Part shown: in pieces, positions 6,967 to 23,237 of the stretch
Numbering within the stretch: the first letter of the stretch is position 1
Layout: each line of letters opens with the position of its first letter
Source: a virus
DNA length: 24,060 nucleotides
Strand: one strand, 5' to 3'
IMG/VR virus record: IMGVR_UViG_3300020442_000596
Coordinates: 1-24,060 of that record
Position numbers and translations under genes: made by a program
Notes under the pieces: model-generated
Told to the model about the DNA's origin: nothing
The model's input: the letters and a program-made list of their open reading frames with translations, nothing else
Databases searched by the model: none

Positions 6967-8519
6967 ACGATATCCAGATGTGTCTCACCACCTTTGGTGA
7001 TAGAAATAGATGCGAGAAGAAAATCGCTTACCTTGAGAGGTGCTGATGGAACAGGATTATCAGTACCAATCATAGGACCTTTCTGACTAGATTTAGCACC
7101 TGCGGATACTGCCTGACTCATGGCACTAATGCCCTGCTGTATAATATTACTTGTAGATGACACAGCACTAGCAGTGTTGCTAATCAACACGGACTCATTC
7201 TGACTATTTACACTGTTAGTCAGGAAGTTAATGTCTTGCTTTAGGTTAGTAGATCCTTCCTGGGCAGGTGTTACGCCGCTCAGATTATTAGACACCGAAG
7301 TATCACTTACCATTGATGACAGACTTGTCGATTGCTTCAGCATCTGACCAGTCTGGTTCAGCGTGGAGCTCATATTATTGAGAGTGGTAGATCCTGTAGC
7401 AAGGTTTGCTGTGGCACCTGACATTGAAGGAGCAGATATGCCAGACATGGCACTCTTGAACCCATGAACAGGTCCACCACGACCAGTGCTAGCACGTGCT
7501 CCACCTTTGTGACCAGTTTTAGACTTCGGTGCTTCTTCTCCACTAGCACCACCAACGTTACTCTTACTGTCAGCAGAAGTTACTGGTGACTTCTTATTAC
7601 CAAACATTCCCCCGAAGAAGTTACCAACGTTGTTAACAAGACTCCTAGCGCCCCCAAAGACCTGGGCAATACCAGGAATTTTTTTCATGGTTGCCTGTGG
7701 AATACCGAACGCTTTCGCTACGTTGGCAGCATTTTTTACAATGTCATCAAAGGCAGGAACTCCAGGGATACCAATCTTACCTAGCAAGCTAGACAGACCT
7801 GCTGCCATTGCTTTGAGTGGCAGTGCCATAGCGCCTGCCATTGCTTTCTTATACTGATCAAGACCCAGCATTTCCTGCATCTTAGCAGCAGGATGCTTCT
7901 TACCTACAAGTCCAGCAGACTCAAGAGATTCAGATGAAGACTTCTTACCTTCAGATACACCCTCAGCAGCAGTCACTGGCGACTTGCCAGGCATCATCAT
8001 CTTCTGAGCTGCTGGAGATATCACACCACCCTGAGAGAATCCAGGAGTCTGTTGTGTCTTACCAGGTTCTGTGATTGGGTTTCTAGGTGAACCCGCTGGT
8101 GGAGTTATGTTAGCATTACCAGTGTCCTTAGGTGGTTGAACACCAGTCTGAGAACCTTCATCCTTTACTACATCTTCTGGTTCAACGTCTCTATCATCAC
8201 CACCCTCCATGAACTCCAGAGGATTCTCCAGGTCCAGGGCAGGAAGTGATTGGGGATTGATAAAGTTAGAGAACTTCTGCATCTTGGTAGATGCTTTCAG
8301 TACCTCAAATCCACCAGCGAGATCAGTCTTTATCCTACCATTCTTACTGTCATCCCTAGCGTCAGCTTCAGCAAGCGACTGGACACTTTCTGACAGCAGG
8401 AAATCCTTATACTTATCCTCACGGAACATGAGGTTAAGTAGGTGGTTCCTGTCTTCAAACAGTTTATTGAGACTCTCTAGAATCTCAGATACGTCTTTTA
8501 GGGATGGAAATTCTTTCAT
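6963..8519 (-). CDS. Low-complexity virion structural protein, 518 aa
   Basis: Only the first 60 residues look folded and helical (LKDVSEILESLNKLFEDRNH). The rest is Ser/Gly/Pro/Ala-rich, with a Pro-rich stretch (about 120-160), a glycine-zipper-like segment (about 230-310: PLKAMAAGLSSLLGKIGIPG) and a long Ser/Thr/Asn/Gln-rich region (about 330-490). Composition and location between the tape-measure candidate and gp27 suggest a tail-interior or hub-associated protein. It is not recognisable as T4 gp28 or gp29. The start at 8519 overlaps the upstream stop as ATGA. Confidence 0.7.
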   Translation of the reverse strand: MKEFPSLKDVSEILESLNKLFEDRNHLLNLMFREDKYKDFLLSESVQSLAEADARDDSKNGRIKTDLAGGFEVLKASTKMQKFSNFINPQSLPALDLENPLEFMEGGDDRDVEPEDVVKDEGSQTGVQPPKDTGNANITPPAGSPRNPITEPGKTQQTPGFSQGGVISPAAQKMMMPGKSPVTAAEGVSEGKKSSSESLESAGLVGKKHPAAKMQEMLGLDQYKKAMAGAMALPLKAMAAGLSSLLGKIGIPGVPAFDDIVKNAANVAKAFGIPQATMKKIPGIAQVFGGARSLVNNVGNFFGGMFGNKKSPVTSADSKSNVGGASGEEAPKSKTGHKGGARASTGRGGPVHGFKSAMSGISAPSMSGATANLATGSTTLNNMSSTLNQTGQMLKQSTSLSSMVSDTSVSNNLSGVTPAQEGSTNLKQDINFLTNSVNSQNESVLISNTASAVSSTSNIIQQGISAMSQAVSAGAKSSQKGPMIGTDNPVPSAPLKVSDFLLASISITKGGETHLDIV

Positions 8520-11209
8520 AATACCTCGTACCTACCTGAGAATGGGTTGATACCATATGATTTATGCTTGGTCTTTGGTTGTTCAACAGATGGCGTAGCC
8601 ACGCGAACAGGCATAGGTTGTGCTTGAGGCACAGGCATAACAATAGGAATCATTGATGGAGTCTTGCCGCCACCACCAGTCGGTGTCAGATTCTTGCTCT
8701 TGTCAACAGGAGTCACACCTCCACCACCTTTGTCATCGGTTGGTGTTGACGATGATCCTGAACCCAGGGCAATCAACTTGGCATAGGCAGCAGGGTTACC
8801 TGATCCACCATAAGCACCAGAGTTCTTTCTAGTGTCTGCCTCAAAGTGTAGGTGAGGTCCACTAGATGAACCAGCACCAGGAGATCCTGCCGCACCTCCA
8901 GTCTTAGAGATAACCTCACCAGCAGCAAACTCACCAGATCTCTTGACAAACTCACTAAGGTGAGCAAGTCTGATCTGAATGTTGTGGGATGGAATCCATA
9001 CATCTTGCATGAAACCATATCCACCATAGTTACCAGCAGCAAGAATCTCACCAGGAGCATTCAATGCCAGAGGTGTACCTGTAGGTGTACCAACGTCAAT
9101 ACCACCATGTAACTTTCCAGGTTGTCCAGTTACGGGGTGAGTTCTAGGACCATATGGACTGGTGATGGGGAATCCAGATACCATTCCACCGTTCGTCTCA
9201 CCTGCTCCAGTGATGCTAGCAGGAGTAGGTGTGAGATCACCAGAGCTAACACCAGCAGATCCAGGTGTCATTGTGCTGCTACTGCTGCTAGTGTCTGTCT
9301 TGGGTGCGTTCTTGACACGACGCAGAGCATCCATGACCTGACCAGGAGTCATTGCGCTAGATTGTCCAGGGTAGTGGAATTTACCCTGAGCATTTGGCAT
9401 TGAAGCAAACTCTTGAGACAGTCCCTGCATGAACTGTTCATCAGTAATCTTACCTGCTAACCACTCATCACCCTGACGGTTGCCTCTGATATTTACATCC
9501 AAAATAATTTTATCCTGATTAGCAGGACTGAAGAGATCTTTGTCAGGATCTAATCCTGCTCTACGAGCTCTCTCTGCCAGGAATCTAGGCAACTGTTGAT
9601 ACTTACCAACAGCACCTGATGCTTTGTTGATGACCTGAGTGATGGTCATCTGTGTCATCCCAGGCATAGTTGTACTGGGATACATTGCTTCGTAGTTACC
9701 ACCTGACTCTTTGCCAGCAATCAAATCAAGTAGAGGTCCCCATTGACCGCTAGTTCCAGCAGTCGCCATGGAAGCAATAGCAGGTGGACCACTAATAGGT
9801 GGGGGTGGCATCATTGTCGCAGCAGATGCTGGACCCATCACCATGTTCATTGCTCCACCGATTATACCAGTTAATGTTGAACCAATCTTACTCATCATAT
9901 CAGGCACCTTACTTCCGCTAAAGATCTTAGCAGCACCGATGTTGGCAAATCCTCCAAATACTCCCTTGAGTCTAGAAACCTCACCCTTGAGGGCACCAAT
10001 GGCGGAACCACCAACAGGGATCGTGTTGAGGAAGTTTGAAGCAAAACCAACCAGCATACCGCCAGTTGATTTTAGCATGTTTTGGTAACCTTCGCCAAGC
10101 TTAGATTGTGGAAGCACAACCTCAGGTTCACCACCCTCACCAATCAGAGCACGGGTGGGAGACTTGACAACACCACCCTCCGCCATTTTTTGTACTGGAT
10201 TTCCATAAGCAGTAATCTTCTCTTCACTGCTCATGTTCGCGAAGGCTTCGTATTCCTCCAGCGGAACAGGGTTGCCATTAATATATCCCTGACCAGTCGC
10301 CATGTCAAAGCGACCAGTTACCTTTGATCTAGTCTCTGTCTTCTCTTCAGATTTTTGTGGTTTATTGGCACCAGTGACCATATCAGCAGCGCCACCTGCG
10401 AGATTGGCACCGATCAACCCTCCGAGAAGTCCACCAATACCAGCACCGATAGCGGTGCCAATACCAGGACCGAAGAATGTACCAATTACAGCACCTGCCT
10501 TTGTACCAGCAGCAAATCCAGCAGAACCACCAGCAGCAGTGGCACCAGCACCTACACCTGCCTGTAAGTTAGTCTGACCCTGTAATTTTCTACTTCCAAA
10601 CTCTAGACCAGCAAACAAGACAGAAAGAGGACCAGGACCACCTTTCATGCTAGGCAACTTAACCTTAGGTAGACTTACCTTAGGCATTTTGACCTTAGGT
10701 AGGTTGACTTTAGGTAGTTTAACCTTAGATACGGTGTCTTTTATTCCTGTTAATGCTCTACCAGGAGCTCTACGCAATGCTTGACCAGCACGTTGCCCTC
10801 TACCTTCGAGGCTATTGAAAAACCTACCAGGTTTAGTTCTCCCAAGTTTTCTACCAGCACGCAGACCCTGAGCCTTACGGTTTCGCATGAAGCGACCGAC
10901 TCTATTACCCTTCTGCTTTGCTCTTAATTGCTTTTTTGTCGGTTTCTTACGTCGGGGGCGACGCATGTAGGGGAGACCACCACCACCTCCACCAAACTTA
11001 GATTTATCTTCGTGACCCTTTCCTTTCTTTCCAAGGACTACCCTTGTCTGTTGTACCTGAGTCATGAAGAAGAACTTCTTCCTGTTTCTCAGGTAAGTTA
11101 GATACTCATGTTCAGTATCTAACATCTGATTGGCACTCTTAGCTACCGAGCTAACTGGTTTGACCAGTTTGCCCCCTAGTAGTCTGTTAAGTGCCGTACG
11201 TTTGATCAT
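8516..11209 (-). CDS. Tape-measure-like tail protein with muramidase-like and M23 peptidase domains
   Basis: An 897-residue protein. It has a basic N-terminus (1-150), pentapeptide repeats LPKVx (165-186) and a glycine-zipper hydrophobic segment (about 215-280). The segment at 342-370 (MAEGGVVKSPTRALIGEGGE) is a signature common in phage tape-measure proteins. A lysozyme/transglycosylase-like domain follows (about 488-610; Glu in LLDLIAGKESGGNYE at about 501). The C-terminal M23 domain (about 680-800) has HxxxD (His701, Asp705), a His in RLAHLSEF (750) and HLH (786-788). The peptidoglycan-cutting domains presumably act during genome entry. It lies directly after the gp26/frameshift gene (ATGA overlap), the usual chaperone-tape measure order. 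At 0.15 nm per residue it would span about 135 nm, plausible for a cyanomyovirus tail. Confidence 0.8.
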   Translation of the reverse strand: MIKRTALNRLLGGKLVKPVSSVAKSANQMLDTEHEYLTYLRNRKKFFFMTQVQQTRVVLGKKGKGHEDKSKFGGGGGGLPYMRRPRRKKPTKKQLRAKQKGNRVGRFMRNRKAQGLRAGRKLGRTKPGRFFNSLEGRGQRAGQALRRAPGRALTGIKDTVSKVKLPKVNLPKVKMPKVSLPKVKLPSMKGGPGPLSVLFAGLEFGSRKLQGQTNLQAGVGAGATAAGGSAGFAAGTKAGAVIGTFFGPGIGTAIGAGIGGLLGGLIGANLAGGAADMVTGANKPQKSEEKTETRSKVTGRFDMATGQGYINGNPVPLEEYEAFANMSSEEKITAYGNPVQKMAEGGVVKSPTRALIGEGGEPEVVLPQSKLGEGYQNMLKSTGGMLVGFASNFLNTIPVGGSAIGALKGEVSRLKGVFGGFANIGAAKIFSGSKVPDMMSKIGSTLTGIIGGAMNMVMGPASAATMMPPPPISGPPAIASMATAGTSGQWGPLLDLIAGKESGGNYEAMYPSTTMPGMTQMTITQVINKASGAVGKYQQLPRFLAERARRAGLDPDKDLFSPANQDKIILDVNIRGNRQGDEWLAGKITDEQFMQGLSQEFASMPNAQGKFHYPGQSSAMTPGQVMDALRRVKNAPKTDTSSSSSTMTPGSAGVSSGDLTPTPASITGAGETNGGMVSGFPITSPYGPRTHPVTGQPGKLHGGIDVGTPTGTPLALNAPGEILAAGNYGGYGFMQDVWIPSHNIQIRLAHLSEFVKRSGEFAAGEVISKTGGAAGSPGAGSSSGPHLHFEADTRKNSGAYGGSGNPAAYAKLIALGSGSSSTPTDDKGGGGVTPVDKSKNLTPTGGGGKTPSMIPIVMPVPQAQPMPVRVATPSVEQPKTKHKSYGINPFSGRYEVL
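10652..10717 (-). repeat. In-gene tandem 15-nt repeat encoding LPKVx pentapeptides
   Basis: Within the tape-measure candidate, residues 165-186 read LPKVN, LPKVK, MPKVS, LPKVK, LP. The plus strand shows the matching recurring ACCTTAGGTA-type units about every 15 nt. The units are not identical at DNA level. The Pro/Lys/Val pattern predicts an extended, positively charged strand rather than a helix. Confidence 0.8.
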
Positions 11210-12092
11210 TTACGTTTGCGTTTTTCTTCTTCGATGCGGTCTCTTTCATCTTGTAGATGCTTAGCAAGCAAGTTCACGTAAATGTCCCTCTCCCAAGGGA
11301 TCATATTCTCAATATCCGTCAATGTATATTTATGATGCTGTACGAGGGCGAAGTTAGTCGTATAAAACCTTTCCAACCCCTCTTGGAAGAGGCTTATCCG
11401 AAAAAATTAATCAGTCCTTCGATAACAGTTGTAGTCTCTACCTTAGTCTTAGGATTCTTAACAGTAATCGTATGACTCAGTTTAGGCATGGTGTCAAAGA
11501 AGTTCTGAACCTTCTCAAACTGTTCGTTGGTAAGAGTCTCCAACCATTCCTTTGCCTCTTGTGGAGTAAAGTCACCACAATCTTCACCATTAGCAAAGAC
11601 ACGATCAATACATGCTGCTACCAGCTCATATGGATCAGGTTCTTCTTCCATGATGTTGACCTTGGCAAAGTAATCAAGGTTTGGATACTTCATGACAGCA
11701 ACAATGTCGTCTGTCAGTTTAATCTCACTCTCATGACCGTCAGGGAAGACAACCTTTACATCATCCACAGGGAATGTGACAGGCACCTTTACTTCTGGAT
11801 CGTCATCACAAGGTACTTCAATTTCAATCGTTTCTTGTACAGAACGACCACGAAGTTGTAAGAAGATATACTCTACATCAAACAGAGCGAGGTCTTCCAT
11901 TTTGAACCGTGAATGAATACAGTTCTTGAAGATCTTGGTGATAGCATCAATGATCTGTGTTTCATTCTCACTCTCCATTGCCAGGATGAGAATCTTTTGC
12001 TCTCTCACCAGGAATGGACGATACTTAAGTTTCTTCTTTGATGAAGGGACAACCAACTCATAGGTTGGAGTGCTAATTTCAGGAAGTGGCAT
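11206..12092 (-). CDS. Predicted gp26 -1 frameshift fusion (long tail-chaperone form)
   Basis: If ribosomes slip -1 on the T TTT TTC heptamer (11406-11400), the 231 residues of gp26 up to FF are joined to 64 residues in the -1 frame, giving about 295 aa. The extension begins RISLFQEGLERFYTTNFALV, contains DIENMIPWERDIYVNLL and ends in a charged helix ERDRIEEEKRKRK, with its stop at 11208-11206. The -1 frame has a TAA just upstream of the heptamer, and no ATG until the Met inside ENMIPWERD, where the motif would be cut. Independent initiation is therefore unlikely unless a TTG is used. The stop overlaps the next ATG as ATGA. The organisation mirrors gpG/gpGT tail chaperones next to tape-measure genes. 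Unproven but well supported by pattern. Confidence 0.75.
11371..11419 (-). promoter_or_regulatory. Programmed -1 ribosomal frameshift signal
   Basis: In minus-strand order: an SD-like AAGGA (11419-11415), 8 nt, then the slippery heptamer T_TTT_TTC (11406-11400) in the correct register with gp26 codons TTT TTC. A 7-nt spacer containing the gp26 TAA follows (11396-11394). Then comes a 5-bp stem CCTCT (11392-11388) / AGAGG (11383-11379) with loop TCCA. The loop is complementary to TGGA at 11375-11372, so a compact pseudoknot is possible. An upstream SD-like element, an X_XXY_YYZ site and a downstream structure at 5-9 nt are the three parts known from bacterial -1 sites such as dnaX. Confidence 0.75.
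11394..12092 (-). CDS. 26: Baseplate hub assembly protein gp26-like (zero-frame product)
   Basis: Protein of 232 residues matching the T4 gp26-type baseplate protein family. It opens MPLPEISTPTYELVVPSSKK, then KYRPFLVREQKILILAMESE and DLALFDVEYIFLQLRGRSVQ, followed by a beta-rich middle and a C-terminal helix ending GLINFFG. The KYRPFLVREEK and DVEYLFLQLR patterns are the family hallmarks as I know them. In T4 gp26 is needed for hub assembly, with a chaperone-like rather than a major structural role. It starts 2 nt after the stop of the tail-tube-like gene. The last codons form a slippery sequence that can produce the extended form. Confidence 0.85.
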   Translation of the reverse strand: MPLPEISTPTYELVVPSSKKKLKYRPFLVREQKILILAMESENETQIIDAITKIFKNCIHSRFKMEDLALFDVEYIFLQLRGRSVQETIEIEVPCDDDPEVKVPVTFPVDDVKVVFPDGHESEIKLTDDIVAVMKYPNLDYFAKVNIMEEEPDPYELVAACIDRVFANGEDCGDFTPQEAKEWLETLTNEQFEKVQNFFDTMPKLSHTITVKNPKTKVETTTVIEGLINFFG

Positions 12093-12094
12093 AA

Positions 12095-12793
12095 TTAATC
12101 AGATTTTTTCCGTTGCTTCGGAGGGGTGAGGCGGGTGCTGTACTCATAGTACATGCCCACGGACAATTTGACCACCTGACTAGAGGCAGCACTATATGGT
12201 ATTGATGATACCATGTATGGGTATGCTTTGACAAGCTGTATGTGGAAGTTATCATAGTTAGTACCGTCAAACTTCTCATACTTTCTAATCTTCACATCGC
12301 ACGTATAGTCATTGTAGAAAGATGTAGCGAATGCTTGCTTCTCTTTCTTAGCAAAGACAGGACCATAAGGATCACCAGTAAAGCTAGCACCTTCAAAGTT
12401 ACCTGCGATGTAATCCTGCCATGCGGTGAAGAATCTCATCGGTGTAGAGTTGACGTCCAGGATGAACGACAGATCCATCTCATTATATACCTTCGCCATG
12501 GCGGGTTTCATGTTGATACCCTTTTTGACACTACGAACATCCTGAGATGTCATGTTGACACCAGGAATCTGTACCTCATTGGCGAGCATACTAATCAACT
12601 CACCATCGAGTCTAGAAGTTTTCCTACCAGAATCGGGAGGAGTAGTTGCCCGTGCCAACCAGTCACCAAGACTCGGCTTCCCACCTTTGAAGGCAGGTTG
12701 GGGAGGGAAAGAAAACTCAATGTCATACAGGTTACCGCTGCTGATCGAGTTGTTAATCTTTGATAAGAATCTGGTAACTGAGGGGATACCCAT
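12095..12793 (-). CDS. Tail-tube-like / baseplate tube initiator protein (gp54-like candidate)
   Basis: Protein of 232 residues with the tail-tube type of fold (T4 gp19/gp54/gp48 relatives). Segments YDIEFSFPPQP, LANEVQIPGVNM, EMDLSFILDVNSTPMRFFTA, YTCDVKIRKYEKFDGTN and FHIQLVKAYPYMVSSIPYSA follow the strand order of these proteins. The 'pG..m' loop and the 'aYP..i....y' strand are typical. gp19 is shorter (163 aa), so a tube initiator (gp54 role) is more likely than the main tube, with gp48 encoded divergently at 13660. It is the first gene of the minus-strand hub operon, under the late promoter box at 12821-12828. The exact T4 counterpart is an inference. Confidence 0.65.
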   Translation of the reverse strand: MGIPSVTRFLSKINNSISSGNLYDIEFSFPPQPAFKGGKPSLGDWLARATTPPDSGRKTSRLDGELISMLANEVQIPGVNMTSQDVRSVKKGINMKPAMAKVYNEMDLSFILDVNSTPMRFFTAWQDYIAGNFEGASFTGDPYGPVFAKKEKQAFATSFYNDYTCDVKIRKYEKFDGTNYDNFHIQLVKAYPYMVSSIPYSAASSQVVKLSVGMYYEYSTRLTPPKQRKKSD

Positions 12794-12820: not shown

Positions 12821-12828
12821 TATTTATG
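12821..12828 (-). promoter_or_regulatory. T4-type late promoter box (leftward, tail/hub operon)
   Basis: On the minus strand CATAAATA (12828-12821) lies 27 nt upstream of the ATG at 12793. It mirrors the rightward box exactly, and its CAT is the complement of the gp4 start codon. The following bases AATAAG extend the AT-rich opening region. This box should drive the gp26-gp5 operon late in infection. Confidence 0.75.
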
Positions 12829-13263
12829 CCGTCCTACAAAGGGAAATATAAGCCAAGTAACTACAGCAAGTACAAAGGAGATCCAACAGCGATCATTTAC
12901 CGCTCTCTATGGGAGCGTAAGTTCATGTACTACTGTGATCACACAGAGAAAGTAGTTGAGTGGTCATCCGAAGAGATCGCGATACCATATAGATCGCCCA
13001 AAGATAATCGGTATCATCTCTATTTCCCTGACTTCTACATGAAGGTAAGAAACACGAATGGTTCAATCCAATCATATCTAGTTGAGGTGAAACCTAAGGC
13101 ACAAGTCGAAGGTCCTAAGCCTCAAGCAAAGAAGACCAAACGATACCTAACGGAGGTCGCGACTTATGCCATCAACCAAGCAAAATGGGAAGCAGCGAGG
13201 GAATACTGCAGGGACAGGCTTTGGCAGTTCAAAATCATCACCGAACGCGAACTCAAAGTTTGA
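12826..13263 (+). CDS. 4: Head completion protein gp4
   Basis: Protein of 145 residues with the T4 gp4 (gp50/65) signature: GDPTAIIYRSLWERKFMYYC, then EWSSEEIAIPY, YFPDFYMKV and YLVEVKPK. The family has a TnsA/PD-(D/E)XK endonuclease-like core, with D in FPDFY and ExK in VEVKPK as the likely metal-site residues. In T4 it is needed to complete DNA-filled heads so that tails can attach. It is the first gene of the plus-strand late operon, 27 nt after a CATAAATA late box. In T4, gene 4 also sits next to gene 53, so the neighbourhood is conserved. Its 3' end overlaps the next gene by 98 nt. Confidence 0.9.
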   Translation: MPSYKGKYKPSNYSKYKGDPTAIIYRSLWERKFMYYCDHTEKVVEWSSEEIAIPYRSPKDNRYHLYFPDFYMKVRNTNGSIQSYLVEVKPKAQVEGPKPQAKKTKRYLTEVATYAINQAKWEAAREYCRDRLWQFKIITERELKV

Positions 13264-13660
13264 ACATCTCATAACAGATCTAAAAGGAAAGAAGATCTCA
13301 AAACAAAAGTTACGAGAAGAAGTATTCAATATCCTCTATGATAACGCAGTCGAGAATGTTGAGGAAGGCAATTACTACTTCTTCGAGTATGACCCAAAAT
13401 TCAAATCAGTGCTGAGAGAGTGGGATCAGTACCCACTGATCCAGGTGCTAGAGATAAAAGGCAATCAGATTCTAGGTGCGAACTTACATTATATAAGTCC
13501 AAACCAGCGCCTGAAGAGTCTAAATAATAAACAAATGCCTGCGGCTACATTTCATTATTACATTCCTCAGAAGGCAGACAATCTGTTCTTTGAAGTTGAC
13601 GAGACTGATGTTCCGCTGCTAAGTCAACTCCCACTAGATAAATTTCATCGGAATCGATAA
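13166..13660 (+). CDS. Conserved baseplate-region protein of unknown function, 164 aa
   Basis: The start at 13166 lies inside gp4 and is supported by a strong Shine-Dalgarno GGAGG at 13152-13156 (9-nt spacing) and by the absence of a later ATG before residue 120. The first 31 residues, encoded in the gp4 overlap, are polar and probably disordered. The folded part has segments NYYFFEYDPKFKSVLREWDQ, PLIQVLEIKGNQILGANLHY and FHYYIPQKADN. This 'FEYDPK...YPL...LG.NLHY' pattern recurs in T4-like cyanophages as an unnamed, probably virion-related protein. Its stop overlaps the gp48 start as TAATG. Confidence 0.75.
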   Translation: MPSTKQNGKQRGNTAGTGFGSSKSSPNANSKFEHLITDLKGKKISKQKLREEVFNILYDNAVENVEEGNYYFFEYDPKFKSVLREWDQYPLIQVLEIKGNQILGANLHYISPNQRLKSLNNKQMPAATFHYYIPQKADNLFFEVDETDVPLLSQLPLDKFHRNR

Positions 13661-14955: not shown

Positions 14956-15581
14956 TGTTATTCAAAAGAATGCCAGATGTAGCTTACAACTACTCTAACT
15001 CAATCACCGACCCCCAGTTCTTGATCGTCAAGAATCTTTGGCGTAGAAATGAAATCTTAGACCAGTATCTGACTTCGTTGACTCTGTTCGATACACATGT
15101 CATCCAGGATGGAGAGACCCCAGAGTCTATAAGTTTCAAATACTACGACAATGTATTTTTTGGTTGGACTATCTTCTTTGTCAATGAGAAGAGTAACTAC
15201 CACAGAGACTGGCCAATGGATTCTGGTACTCTAAAAGAGTATGTTTACAATAAGTATCCAAACCCAGATGCTACCTCACACTATGAAACCACAAAGGTAG
15301 TGGACGCTCTGGATAGAACGATTATTGAAGCAGGAAAGCAGGTACCTAGTAACTTCTCCATTACTTACTTCGACGGTACAGCATCTGCTGGTGTAACTGT
15401 AAACCCTGTACAGACAGTCAGCTACTACGAAAAAGAAACTCGTGAGAATGATGCTCGTAGAGAGATCAAACTAATAAGACCCGCCCACATCAGGGACTTT
15501 GTTGACGTATACGCCAGGACCTTGAGGAGAGCGGGTGCTATGGAAATCGCGTTGTCAGAACACGACGTTAAAATTGAGTGA
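14955..15581 (+). CDS. 53: Baseplate wedge subunit gp53
   Basis: Protein of 208 residues (T4 gp53 is 196). The LysM-like core is visible at about 48-78 (THVIQDGETPESISFKYYDN, then VFFGWTIFFVNE), and the N-terminal YNYSNSITDPQFLIVKNLWR region fits the wedge-protein pattern. gp53 clamps the gp6-gp7-gp25 wedge in the T4 baseplate. It starts with a TAATG overlap with gp48. It is the last gene of the plus-strand operon; its 3' end overlaps the 3' end of talC by 14 nt on the opposite strand, and I see no terminator hairpin in the junction. Confidence 0.85.
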   Translation: MLFKRMPDVAYNYSNSITDPQFLIVKNLWRRNEILDQYLTSLTLFDTHVIQDGETPESISFKYYDNVFFGWTIFFVNEKSNYHRDWPMDSGTLKEYVYNKYPNPDATSHYETTKVVDALDRTIIEAGKQVPSNFSITYFDGTASAGVTVNPVQTVSYYEKETRENDARREIKLIRPAHIRDFVDVYARTLRRAGAMEIALSEHDVKIE

Positions 15582-16224
15582 CCTTAGGGATACCTGCCCA
15601 GTCCTTCTCAAAGATTTCAATACCCTTATCAGTGAGGATGTGATTATACATGTCCTCAAAGACTTTGGGTGGCATCGTACAAATCTCAGCACCGTTGTAC
15701 CATGACCGCACAGCACGTTGTACGTTGCGGATGGATGCTGCCAGGACTTGAGTCTCGCGACGGTGGATGCGATAAACCTCAGAGATAGAACGAACAACCT
15801 CCAGACCTGCGACTGACTGATCATCCAGGCGTCCCACAAAGGGAGACACATAGGTAGCACCTGCCTTGGAAGCGAGAATCGCTTGAGCAGCGCTAAAGAT
15901 CAGAGTCACGTTGGTTCGGATGTGACGCTTGGACAGTTCCTTACACACCATCAGACCATCCACATTACATGGAAGCTTGATGGTAGCGTTGGTCTTGTAC
16001 TTGTCAGCAAGGCGGAAACCTTCGTTCAGCATCTCATCATAGTCACCAACAACCTCCATGGAGATGTCAGGGACCCCAAGTTCCACGAGTTCGTCATAGA
16101 CAGACTCGGGATGGTTACCTGCCTTATAAACCAGGGTAGGGTTGGTAGTGACGCCATCAATCAAACCTGTATCCCACAGGCGACGGATCGTTGGAAGATC
16201 CGCCGTATCAAGAAATATCTTCAT
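15568..16224 (-). CDS. talC: Transaldolase, TalC/fructose-6-phosphate aldolase type
   Basis: Protein of 218 residues, the length of the short TalC/FSA transaldolase class. The visible signature is MKIFLDTADL, then GVTTNPTLVYKAG (Asp6 and Asn28 conserved) and ATIKLPCNVDGL, where Lys83 would be the Schiff-base lysine. TYVSPFVGRLDD and AASIRN follow. Cyanophage TalC moves three-carbon units in the pentose phosphate pathway and is thought to shift host carbon flow toward NADPH and ribose for phage DNA. It starts with an ATGA overlap with the gp32 stop (16221-16224), so it is translated with the replication genes. It converges on gp53. Confidence 0.95.
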   Translation of the reverse strand: MKIFLDTADLPTIRRLWDTGLIDGVTTNPTLVYKAGNHPESVYDELVELGVPDISMEVVGDYDEMLNEGFRLADKYKTNATIKLPCNVDGLMVCKELSKRHIRTNVTLIFSAAQAILASKAGATYVSPFVGRLDDQSVAGLEVVRSISEVYRIHRRETQVLAASIRNVQRAVRSWYNGAEICTMPPKVFEDMYNHILTDKGIEIFEKDWAGIPKVTQF

Positions 16225-19953: not shown

Positions 19954-20168
19954 CAGTCTTTCTCCTTTGCTTTCTTGTTAAAACCAAAAGGTCCGACCTT
20001 ATCCTTCACTCGTTCCTTCATTACGGCAGTACCGAGTGCTTCCATAACCTTGAGTACATCTTCTGCCTTGTGTGGACCTGTGCCCATACGCTCGGCAGCG
20101 AAGTTGTACTTCTGAAAAAACTCATCAGAGACGAGTTTGTAATCATCAACTGTAATCGGTTCAATCAT
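19953..20168 (-). CDS. Small hypothetical protein, 71 aa
   Basis: Helical small protein (MIEPITVDDYKLVSDEFFQK, then EDVLKVMEALGTAVMKERVK), with a lysine-rich end (FGFNKKAKEKD) and no recognised domain. ATG 20168 forms an ATGA overlap with the thyX stop and is preferred; an ATG two codons upstream (20174) is equally possible. It resembles small genes commonly found beside thyX and phoH in cyanophages, but I cannot name a family. Confidence 0.65.
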   Translation of the reverse strand: MIEPITVDDYKLVSDEFFQKYNFAAERMGTGPHKAEDVLKVMEALGTAVMKERVKDKVGPFGFNKKAKEKD

Positions 20169-20800
20169 GACCATTCAAGTGCTTCAGCACAAATAGGGAA
20201 CTGTTCAACAAATATAGCACGGCACGCTTCCGCGATGTCCATGTGTTCTTTTTGGGTGCCATTGGCACTCCGTAAATTTATATAGTGGATCCAGGATCTA
20301 CACGAGCCTGTCATGTAGATACGAGTAGGCACAGCAAGAGGAAGCACAAAACGGGCACACTCTTTAGCAATATTCTGACGAAGCAGCTCATTATAAAGAT
20401 CCATGCCCTCTTCAAAGTGCCTGGCAATTTTCCGTTGTAATAGAGTCCTAGTCTCGGGACTGATATCATCGATTGAGTTTTGCCTGTTCTTGTCATCTTG
20501 CCTCCGCAGATCTGGAACAGGGATTTCGTTGGATAGTAGATTAGTGTCAGCATACCTTTGCGAAAATTCTTGATATGTGAAACTACGGTGACGCAAAATT
20601 TGAGCCGCCAGTCCTCTGGTGGTCTCAATCTCTAGTGTCATGAACGATTGTTCAAAAACGCTCCAATGATCGTGCTTAATACAATACTTAAGGAGACCAG
20701 CAACCTTAGGATTTTCCTGGTTGTTGGGGTTGCTAACTCTCGCCACATACCCCATAACTTTCTCGGCGTCAGGGGTAACACTAATAAGACGTACTGTCAT
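20165..20800 (-). CDS. thyX: Flavin-dependent thymidylate synthase ThyX
   Basis: Protein of 211 residues with the ThyX motif RHR-x7-S: RHRSFTYQEFSQRY (Arg70, His71, Arg72, Ser80). It also has the upstream HDHWSVFEQSFMTLEIE and the C-terminal GSCRSWIHYINLRSANGTQK active-site region. It makes dTMP from dUMP using FAD, NADPH and methylene-tetrahydrofolate, supplying DNA precursors during infection. It is complete by comparison with the family (about 210-250 aa). It starts with an ATGA overlap (20797-20800). Confidence 0.95.
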   Translation of the reverse strand: MTVRLISVTPDAEKVMGYVARVSNPNNQENPKVAGLLKYCIKHDHWSVFEQSFMTLEIETTRGLAAQILRHRSFTYQEFSQRYADTNLLSNEIPVPDLRRQDDKNRQNSIDDISPETRTLLQRKIARHFEEGMDLYNELLRQNIAKECARFVLPLAVPTRIYMTGSCRSWIHYINLRSANGTQKEHMDIAEACRAIFVEQFPICAEALEWS

Positions 20801-22078: not shown

Positions 22079-22423
22079 TTATTTATTGAGAGACTTCGAT
22101 CGTCTCCCTGGTCTCCTATCATGCTCATACCTCCTAGCATCGTCAATGAGTCCATCAAGGTATTTTACCACCTTGCGTGCCTCAGGTTTAGTGAGGAAAG
22201 CATATGCCTCTCTCAGTGTCTTGTCACCGCCTTTGATGAACGCTTTGAGCTCATCAGCGGTTTGTGTGATGTTCTTGGCGGTAGGAGAGTCTAGGAACTC
22301 TCTAGCATCACATCTCCTAGCTTTGTTGTACTTCAGATGTTGATACATGTTGAACAAATACTTTCGTTCAAATACAGCAACGTCTATAGACCGCTCAACT
22401 AGGAAATAAAATTCATCCATCAA
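22079..22423 (-). CDS. Hypothetical protein, 114 aa
   Basis: Helical, basic protein (FYFLVERSIDVAVFERKYLF, then GGDKTLREAYAFLTKPEARK, VVKYLDGLIDDARRYEHD) with an Arg/Lys-rich tail RRPGRRSKSLNK that may bind nucleic acid. No domain is recognised. The start ATG 22423 overlaps the glutaredoxin stop as ATGA. After it comes a 135-nt region with only a hairpin and a doubtful small frame. Confidence 0.65.
   Translation of the reverse strand: MMDEFYFLVERSIDVAVFERKYLFNMYQHLKYNKARRCDAREFLDSPTAKNITQTADELKAFIKGGDKTLREAYAFLTKPEARKVVKYLDGLIDDARRYEHDRRPGRRSKSLNK
22080..22087 (-). promoter_or_regulatory. Possible late promoter box
   Basis: Minus-strand AATAAATA, one base from TATAAATA, overlaps the end of the 114-aa gene and precedes the 135-nt leader of the membrane-protein gene. 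It could be a late promoter for that gene, or chance in AT-rich sequence. Confidence 0.3.
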
Positions 22424-22659
22424 ATGATTCCAGATTCTTTCAAATGCCTGACGGTTTCAGTACAACCTCCGAGTTTCGTCTCTCCCTTGACTACTTGTGG
22501 GAAAGTCGAACCGTCTCCAAACTCGGCGTAAAATTGGGATCGGTCAAAATCCTTATTCAGTTCATATACAACGTGTTTCAGTTCTGCTAGACGCATAACC
22601 TGTTTAACGCGAACACAAAAAGGGCAACCATCCTTAGAGTAAATTGTGTATGTATCCAT
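22420..22659 (-). CDS. Glutaredoxin
   Basis: Protein of 79 residues with the dithiol glutaredoxin motif CPFC (Cys12, Cys15) after a beta strand (YTIYSKDG). It also has the cis-proline loop TFPQVV and the GGCTET glutathione-binding turn. It reduces protein disulfides with glutathione; in T4-like phages glutaredoxins supply electrons to ribonucleotide reductase. No reductase gene is inside this window. It is coupled to both neighbours by overlaps. Confidence 0.93.
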   Translation of the reverse strand: MDTYTIYSKDGCPFCVRVKQVMRLAELKHVVYELNKDFDRSQFYAEFGDGSTFPQVVKGETKLGGCTETVRHLKESGII

Positions 22660-23237
22660 TAAACATTCGGGGTCTCGTAGTTAAACCAACCAGTAGCGAT
22701 AAACTTTTCATGTGTCTCGCTAATCTGTCCTTTATGTATATGGGTCCAGGACGCTGGCCAGATGCTTAGTTTACCACGCTTCGCTTCCATTGTAAAATCT
22801 TGTTCTAGGAACTCAGTACCTCCACCTGGGCAATCGTTGAGATTGATCATCCATGCCAATGCCCGCGTGGTTTGGGGATTGGGGTAATTTACAAAATTGG
22901 TGGTTTCATGATGCCAGAGCTTGAAACCTCCTTTAGGGGCATAATGTTGAATATTGAAGGAATTGTACAAACTGAATCTATCAGTATGTTGTAACCCAGG
23001 GTGCTCTTCTTCGTATTTTCTGAATCCTCGCTCAATCGCCCCATATAGCAACTGATGAATTATTGAAGAATCAGAGAACTGGCAATAGAAGTCTGTAGAG
23101 TCTTTCAGTTCTGGATCAACAAATCCATAACCGATCATACCAGGTTCATGCTTTTCCTTATTCTTGTAAAAGTAGTCAGTGACTAATTTACATTCGTCGG
23201 CGGACAAACAATCATCATATATGCCGATAAAGTTCAT
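22659..23237 (-). CDS. 2OG-Fe(II) oxygenase (prolyl 4-hydroxylase-like)
   Basis: Protein of 192 residues with the double-stranded beta-helix oxygenase pattern. The N-terminal FIGIYDDCLSADECKLVTDY is typical of the family. The iron site would be His109-His110-Glu111 (LWHHET, an HxE form of the usual HxD), with distal His166 or His168 in SWTHIHKG. A basic residue near 178 (HEKFIATGWF) would bind 2-oxoglutarate. QHYAPKGGF and GGGTEFLEQD are further hallmarks. Such enzymes are frequent in cyanophages; the substrate is unknown, and 2-oxoglutarate is also the cyanobacterial nitrogen signal. It overlaps glutaredoxin by one base. Confidence 0.9.
   Translation of the reverse strand: MNFIGIYDDCLSADECKLVTDYFYKNKEKHEPGMIGYGFVDPELKDSTDFYCQFSDSSIIHQLLYGAIERGFRKYEEEHPGLQHTDRFSLYNSFNIQHYAPKGGFKLWHHETTNFVNYPNPQTTRALAWMINLNDCPGGGTEFLEQDFTMEAKRGKLSIWPASWTHIHKGQISETHEKFIATGWFNYETPNV

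Follow-up and report, generated by a model that had tools for sequence, protein, structure and literature searches.

How is the reading frame that directly follows gp26 translated in this cyanophage, when no ATG stands at its start? The window analysed here, the whole 24,060-nucleotide stretch of the IMG/VR record IMGVR_UViG_3300020442_000596, encodes a homologue of T4 gp26 on its minus strand. A first-pass annotation had proposed that a programmed frameshift at the end of this gene makes a pair of tail chaperones of the kind known as gpG and gpGT from phage lambda. We find that the slippery heptamer and the frame that it opens into are present in every relative compared, and we consider it very probable that a programmed -1 frameshift makes two tail assembly chaperones, of 232 and 295 aa.

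The end of gp26 and the -1 frame

The 3' end of gp26 reads GAA GGA CTG ATT AAT TTT TTC GGA TAA, and the features of the locus are collected in Table 1. The heptamer T_TTT_TTC lies in the register originally assigned to it, with TTT (11405-11403) as the P-site codon and TTC (11402-11400) as the A-site codon, an arrangement that fits a simultaneous -1 slip; a single codon, GGA, separates it from the TAA of gp26. In about 7,700 codons of the genes of the window this is the sole in-frame instance of U_UUU_UUY. Read in the -1 frame, the site becomes TAA TTT TTT CGG ATA..., and the product, RISLFQEG...KRKRK, extends for 64 codons to a TGA (11208-11206), which forms an ATGA (11209-11206) with the start codon of the following gene. 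The length of this frame and the lack of an ATG at its start are thus as first described; its first ATG is residue 33, preceded only by TTG codons at residues 9 and 27. Joined at the slip site, 231 residues of gp26 and 64 of the -1 frame give a predicted fusion of 295 aa, the length proposed for the long form. The annotation had also pointed to a -1 stop just before the heptamer. This stop is present in the window, directly 5' of the heptamer, but it is found at varying distances upstream in relatives, and we reject its position as a feature of the site.

Table 1. Features of the gp26 locus, in positions of the window.
Feature	Position	Strand	Evidence or remark
Tail tube protein, upstream of gp26 (gpV-like position)	12095..12793	-	PF23849 E 3e-16, phrog_45 E 8e-31
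gp26 homologue, predicted short form (TAC-N, gpG-like), 232 aa	11394..12092	-	PF12322 T4_baseplate, phrog_150, T4 gp26 profile match
SD-like AAGGA, probable stimulator	11415..11419	-	8 nt upstream of heptamer
Slippery heptamer U_UUU_UUC	11400..11406	-	conserved as U_UUU_UU[C/U/A] in 166/166 loci
Zero-frame stop TAA of gp26	11394..11396	-	
-1 frame ORF, 64 aa + stop, gp51 homologue	11206..11400	-	phrog_634; conserved from heptamer onward
Possible downstream stem-loop (AAGCCU C UUCCAA / UUGGAA AGGUUU), weak	11365..11395	-	MFE -11.5 kcal/mol, z -1.5
897-aa tape-measure-like protein, glycine zipper + M23 peptidase domain	8516..11209	-	ATG overlaps -1 ORF stop

We propose that most ribosomes translating gp26 would stop at its TAA (11396-11394) and release the short chaperone. 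In a minority of ribosomes, tRNA-Phe in the P and A sites on UUU_UUC would re-pair one base back on UUU_UUU (11406-11400), a slip probably helped by the SD-like element upstream and, in some lineages, by a downstream stem. The slipped ribosomes would then read the 64 codons of the -1 frame and produce the gp26-gp51 fusion. Measurements in E. coli rank U_UU.C as the Phe tetramer most prone to slip and place heptamers of the form H_HH.U_UU.Y among the most efficient -1 motifs (PMC4066793). We found no direct protein or reporter evidence of the slip, and the literature searched gave no cyanophage proteome data for a junction peptide.

Conservation of the site and the question of a separate start

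The comparison covers 166 loci from IMG/VR and GenBank, of which 77 count as non-redundant when shared 12-mers are used as the criterion. Cyanophages are represented, as are T4-like phages of Pelagibacter, Vibrio and Sinorhizobium, and identity of gp26 to that of the window goes down to about 30%. The heptamer is kept and gp51 lies in the -1 frame in all 166 loci, and so in all 77 of the non-redundant set. An in-frame U_UUU_UUN adjoins the gp26 stop, its A-site codon being UUC in 66, UUU in eight and UUA in three of the 77. P values computed on such a set treat related lineages as independent and overstate significance. The fairer yardstick is the contrast with control pairs from the same genes, where T_TTT_TTY occurs at three of 74 other Phe-Phe pairs, against T_TTT_TTN at 77 of 77 sites (Fisher 5e-40). 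Tested against codon usage, TTT in the P site at 77/77 gives p 3e-14, and TTC in the A site at 66 of the 74 loci that have Phe there gives p 3e-23, the rest of gp26 favouring TTT by 2:1. In two viral contigs (L036 and L049) and in Pelagibacter phage Mosig (L167) the gp26 stop lies 24 nt past the heptamer instead of 3, and both heptamer and -1 ORF are kept.

The extension is conserved with the site. Its length is 57-67 aa in all 76 complete cases, every one of the 74 loci in which an HHK motif was found has it starting 21 residues past the slip, and in most records tblastn similarity begins at the first post-slip residue. A relative that retains the -1 ORF and has lost the heptamer, which would speak against frameshifting, was looked for among the 166 loci and not seen; the exception is T4 with its close kin, where an in-frame gp51 is found instead. 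The comparison also bears out the absence of a consistently placed start codon.

It is on this last point that the strongest competing explanation turns, namely that ribosomes re-initiate at an internal start once past the stop of gp26 and translate gp51 separately. GenBank does annotate gp51 as a gene of its own, with products that range from those starting at an internal ATG (30 aa in P-HM2, 29 aa in RN05-S) to near-full length; 31 of the 76 relatives have an ATG within the first 12 residues; and in the window the TTG at residue 9 stands directly after GAGGGG. Yet this SD-like run leaves no spacing to the TTG, and no start position is conserved among the 76 relatives: counted from zero, the first ATG falls at index 1, 2, 3, 4, 8, 9, 12, 18, 19 or 32, ten different positions. 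Within the first 12 residues 45 of the 76 extensions have no ATG, and 36 have no ATG, GTG or TTG, yet conservation of the protein reaches as far as the heptamer. Since a separately initiated gp51 would keep a start codon whereas the first ATG varies, the extension belongs to the slip; separate initiation also leaves the invariant heptamer unexplained, and we regard it as very unlikely.

Signals around the slip site

The AAGGA reported upstream of the heptamer is found at 11419-11415, and elements of this kind are common to the family. A match of at least 4 nt to an SD-like sequence occurs in 72 of the 77 relatives, 66 of these at 8-10 nt upstream of the heptamer, and at the codons that make it up, SD-like synonyms are favoured for both Gly (p 3e-4) and Glu (p 5e-4).

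Slightly less probable even than a separate start is slippage of RNA polymerase on the T6 run, by which mRNAs with an extra U, and not a slipping ribosome, would connect the two frames. All loci have six or more T in a row, and in a few the run is longer. In most lineages, however, six T are followed by C (TTC 66 against TTT eight at the A site), and three lineages have TTA. A change of this C to T would be synonymous, would give the codon preferred 2:1 and, by lengthening the run, would favour such slippage, yet the C is kept. An SD-like element at 8-10 nt, moreover, makes sense only for a ribosome. Because C is kept at the seventh position and an SD-like element stands upstream, we attribute the frameshift to the ribosome rather than to RNA polymerase.

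The RNA downstream of the site gives a less uniform picture. In the window, downstream folds have z scores of +0.3 to -1.5, which are not significant alone. In the 35- and 60-nt stretches the favoured stem is formed by UUCCAA (11388-11383) and UUGGAA (11376-11371), and the MFE fold of the 100-nt stretch contains a CCUCUU/AAGAGG-type hairpin (z +0.3). A 5-bp hairpin, CCTCT/AGAGG (11392-11388 / 11383-11379), with a pseudoknot between its loop and TGGA, had been suggested from the letters of the window. The letters allow this pairing, but neither the 35- nor the 60-nt stretch has it as its MFE fold. By inspection, one base change breaks its stem in L083 and L084, the two closest relatives (gp26 97-98% identical), while both keep the inner stem UUCCAA/UUGGAA, which L085 does not. 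Because the hairpin stem is broken in these relatives while the other pairing is kept, the pseudoknot is not supported, and we discard the hairpin and its pseudoknot as a conserved stimulator.

Taken over all lineages, the 45 nt after the site fold more stably than shuffled sequences, with a mean z of -1.9, against -0.2 in control stretches (p 3e-8). Since about a third of the lineages show nothing and the stems of the others lie in different registers, a downstream structure common to all is likewise rejected, and a downstream stimulator is likely in some lineages only.

Identity of the gene pair and comparison with known systems

The gp26 ORF matches PF12322 T4_baseplate (E 6e-62, Pfam) and phrog_150 (E 3.5e-70, PHROGs), and its profile comparison with T4 gp26 gives 99.7% (hhalign). 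The -1 ORF matches phrog_634, the baseplate hub assembly catalyst or gp51 family (E 3e-26, PHROGs), and is almost certainly the C-terminal extension (TAC-C, T-like) of the 295-aa long form. Searches of Pfam and PHROGs returned no tail-chaperone family by name, and gp26 had no genuine match among PDB sequences. The 897-aa protein that follows matches PF01551 (E 8e-10) and PF13488 (E 4e-5, just below its cut-off) and has weak matches to several tape-measure PHROGs in separate regions; we infer that it is the tape measure. The order of genes is thus tail tube, gp26, -1 ORF and tape-measure-like gene, with the pair in the position of a chaperone between tube and tape measure. In lambda the order is tail tube, chaperone, extension and tape measure. 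If the pair works as gpG and gpGT do in lambda, the short form may coat the tape-measure protein, the C-terminal segment of the long form may recruit the tail tube subunit, and both forms would be expected to leave the finished tail.

Other genes of the window were noted in passing. The gene for a head-closure protein, gp4, whose fold is that of a TnsA-like endonuclease, shares 98 nt with the ORF downstream of it, which is read in a different frame (12826-13263 and 13166-13660, plus strand), and a similar gp4/gp2 overlap is annotated in P-HM2. On the minus strand, 916-1407 encodes a 163-aa protein in which an acyl-carrier-protein-like phosphopantetheine attachment domain (PF00550, E 9e-7) is followed by a charged tail. 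A gene for transaldolase, one of the auxiliary metabolic genes known from cyanophages, adjoins structural genes (15568-16224, minus strand; PF00923, E 8e-50). ThyX thymidylate synthase, a glutaredoxin and a 2OG-Fe(II) oxygenase (20165-20800, 22420-22659 and 22659-23237, minus strand) are usual cyanomyovirus cargo.

The predicted fold of gp26 may point in the same direction as its gene neighbourhood. For residues 1-90 of the AF2 model (pLDDT 87.6) the top three solved structures are 3fgx, YqbN (3klu) and HK97 2ob9, with Z of 7.2-7.3 over 84-85 residues and the next row at 4.4; a Z below 8 can arise by chance, and Foldseek alone gives a best E of 0.33 and ranks 2ob9 without significance. We take 3fgx and YqbN to be phage or prophage tail chaperone relatives. 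That a named tail assembly chaperone and two relatives form the top three matches of the modelled N-terminal domain is suggestive. The original proposal that cyanophage gp26 is the counterpart of gpG/GT, with a short and a fused long form, is supported by conservation and gene order, and the predicted fold fits it.

T4 itself offers a counterpart without a slip. T4 and its Aeromonas relatives carry gene 26 on the opposite strand, and their gene 51 encodes a product of about 249 aa. By hhalign, T4-type gp26 is related to the first 200 residues of T4-type gp51 (99.4%), and so is cyanophage gp26 to this N-terminal part (98.1%). The family phrog_634 matches both the -1 ORF of the window and T4-type gp51, and the extension aligns with the C-terminal 38 residues of Aeromonas gp51 (tblastn E 1e-3). 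The AF2 model of gp51 shows an order of elements similar to gp26 plus a helical C-terminal segment; no tail chaperone is among the PDB structure matches of the T4-type gp51 model, which is not evidence against the relationship. Judged by these profile matches, gp26 of T4 is the short form and its gp51 the long form, read in frame, each from a gene of its own. T4 gp51 is required for baseplate assembly and is absent from the particle (PMC3004832). The idea that the -1 ORF, being short and lacking an ATG start, is a nonfunctional and untranslated remnant has next to no chance of being right, since it is stop-free over 57-67 aa in 76/76 diverged loci, a conservation that already contradicts it, and its homologue is the C-terminal part of a protein that T4 needs for its baseplate (PMC3004832). 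T4 and its close kin form the one exception group, in which a full-length in-frame gp51 replaces the frameshift. It is conceivable, though we hold it only tentatively, that the slip site has been frozen across T4-like phages while the downstream stem was repeatedly replaced in other registers, each lineage tuning its ratio of short to long product, and that the T4 group escaped via duplicated genes.

Frameshifting is said to have been found conserved in several T4-like groups by Vladimirov et al. in 2022, with T4 using genes 26 and 51. A review describes G-T frameshifting as widely conserved in long-tailed phages 'except T4' (PMC5009743). According to two later papers (PMC10885494, PMC12846349), Vladimirov, Gautam and Davidson (Virology 2022, 566:9-15) identified the tail chaperone genes of T4-like phages. 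In their accounts of that study, some T4-like phages have a short gene and a longer fused gene in place of frameshifting (PMC10885494), and the TAC-N genes of T4-like phages contain poly-T frameshift signals (PMC12846349). As cited there, the frameshift mechanism and the gene assignment in T4-like phages are not new but were proposed in 2022, and the gp26 (TAC-N) and gp51 (TAC-NC) so described belong to the same gene family and have the same predicted poly-T slip as the window. What the present work adds is one environmental cyanophage member and a quantitative account of conservation; the large conserved set is strong comparative support for the published T4-like proposal and extends to phages that infect abundant marine bacteria. 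None of the GenBank records inspected joins the two ORFs; gp51 is entered as a separate short gene, often with a doubtful internal start, or is unannotated. This points to a persistent annotation error in the inspected public cyanophage records, where gp51 almost certainly forms the end of a frameshift product. The 'hub chaperone' puzzle of T4 gp26/gp51 becomes testable as a gpG/gpGT-like pair.

The slip site of lambda is G_GGA_AAG, whereas that of the window is U_UUU_UUC; gp26 is moreover larger (232 aa), with an extra C-terminal part. The plan of a short form with a -1 extension is shared with lambda gpG/gpGT, where the extension is rare and the proteins act on the tape-measure and major tail protein (PMC5009743). 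With T4 the contrast is one of gene organization, an environmental cyanophage with a predicted frameshift against two genes on opposite strands. The HK97 gp13 chaperone (2ob9) and YqbN (3klu) resemble gp26 in the predicted fold of residues 1-90, although only the N-terminal third of gp26 aligns with them, at 6-13% identity. The TAC locus of Pseudomonas phage Adele and the Vandenendeviridae resembles that of the window in its conserved poly-T slip, in a -1 ORF annotated separately and in being argued from T4-like precedent, but it belongs to a different phage family and its motif is GTTTTT (PMC12846349).
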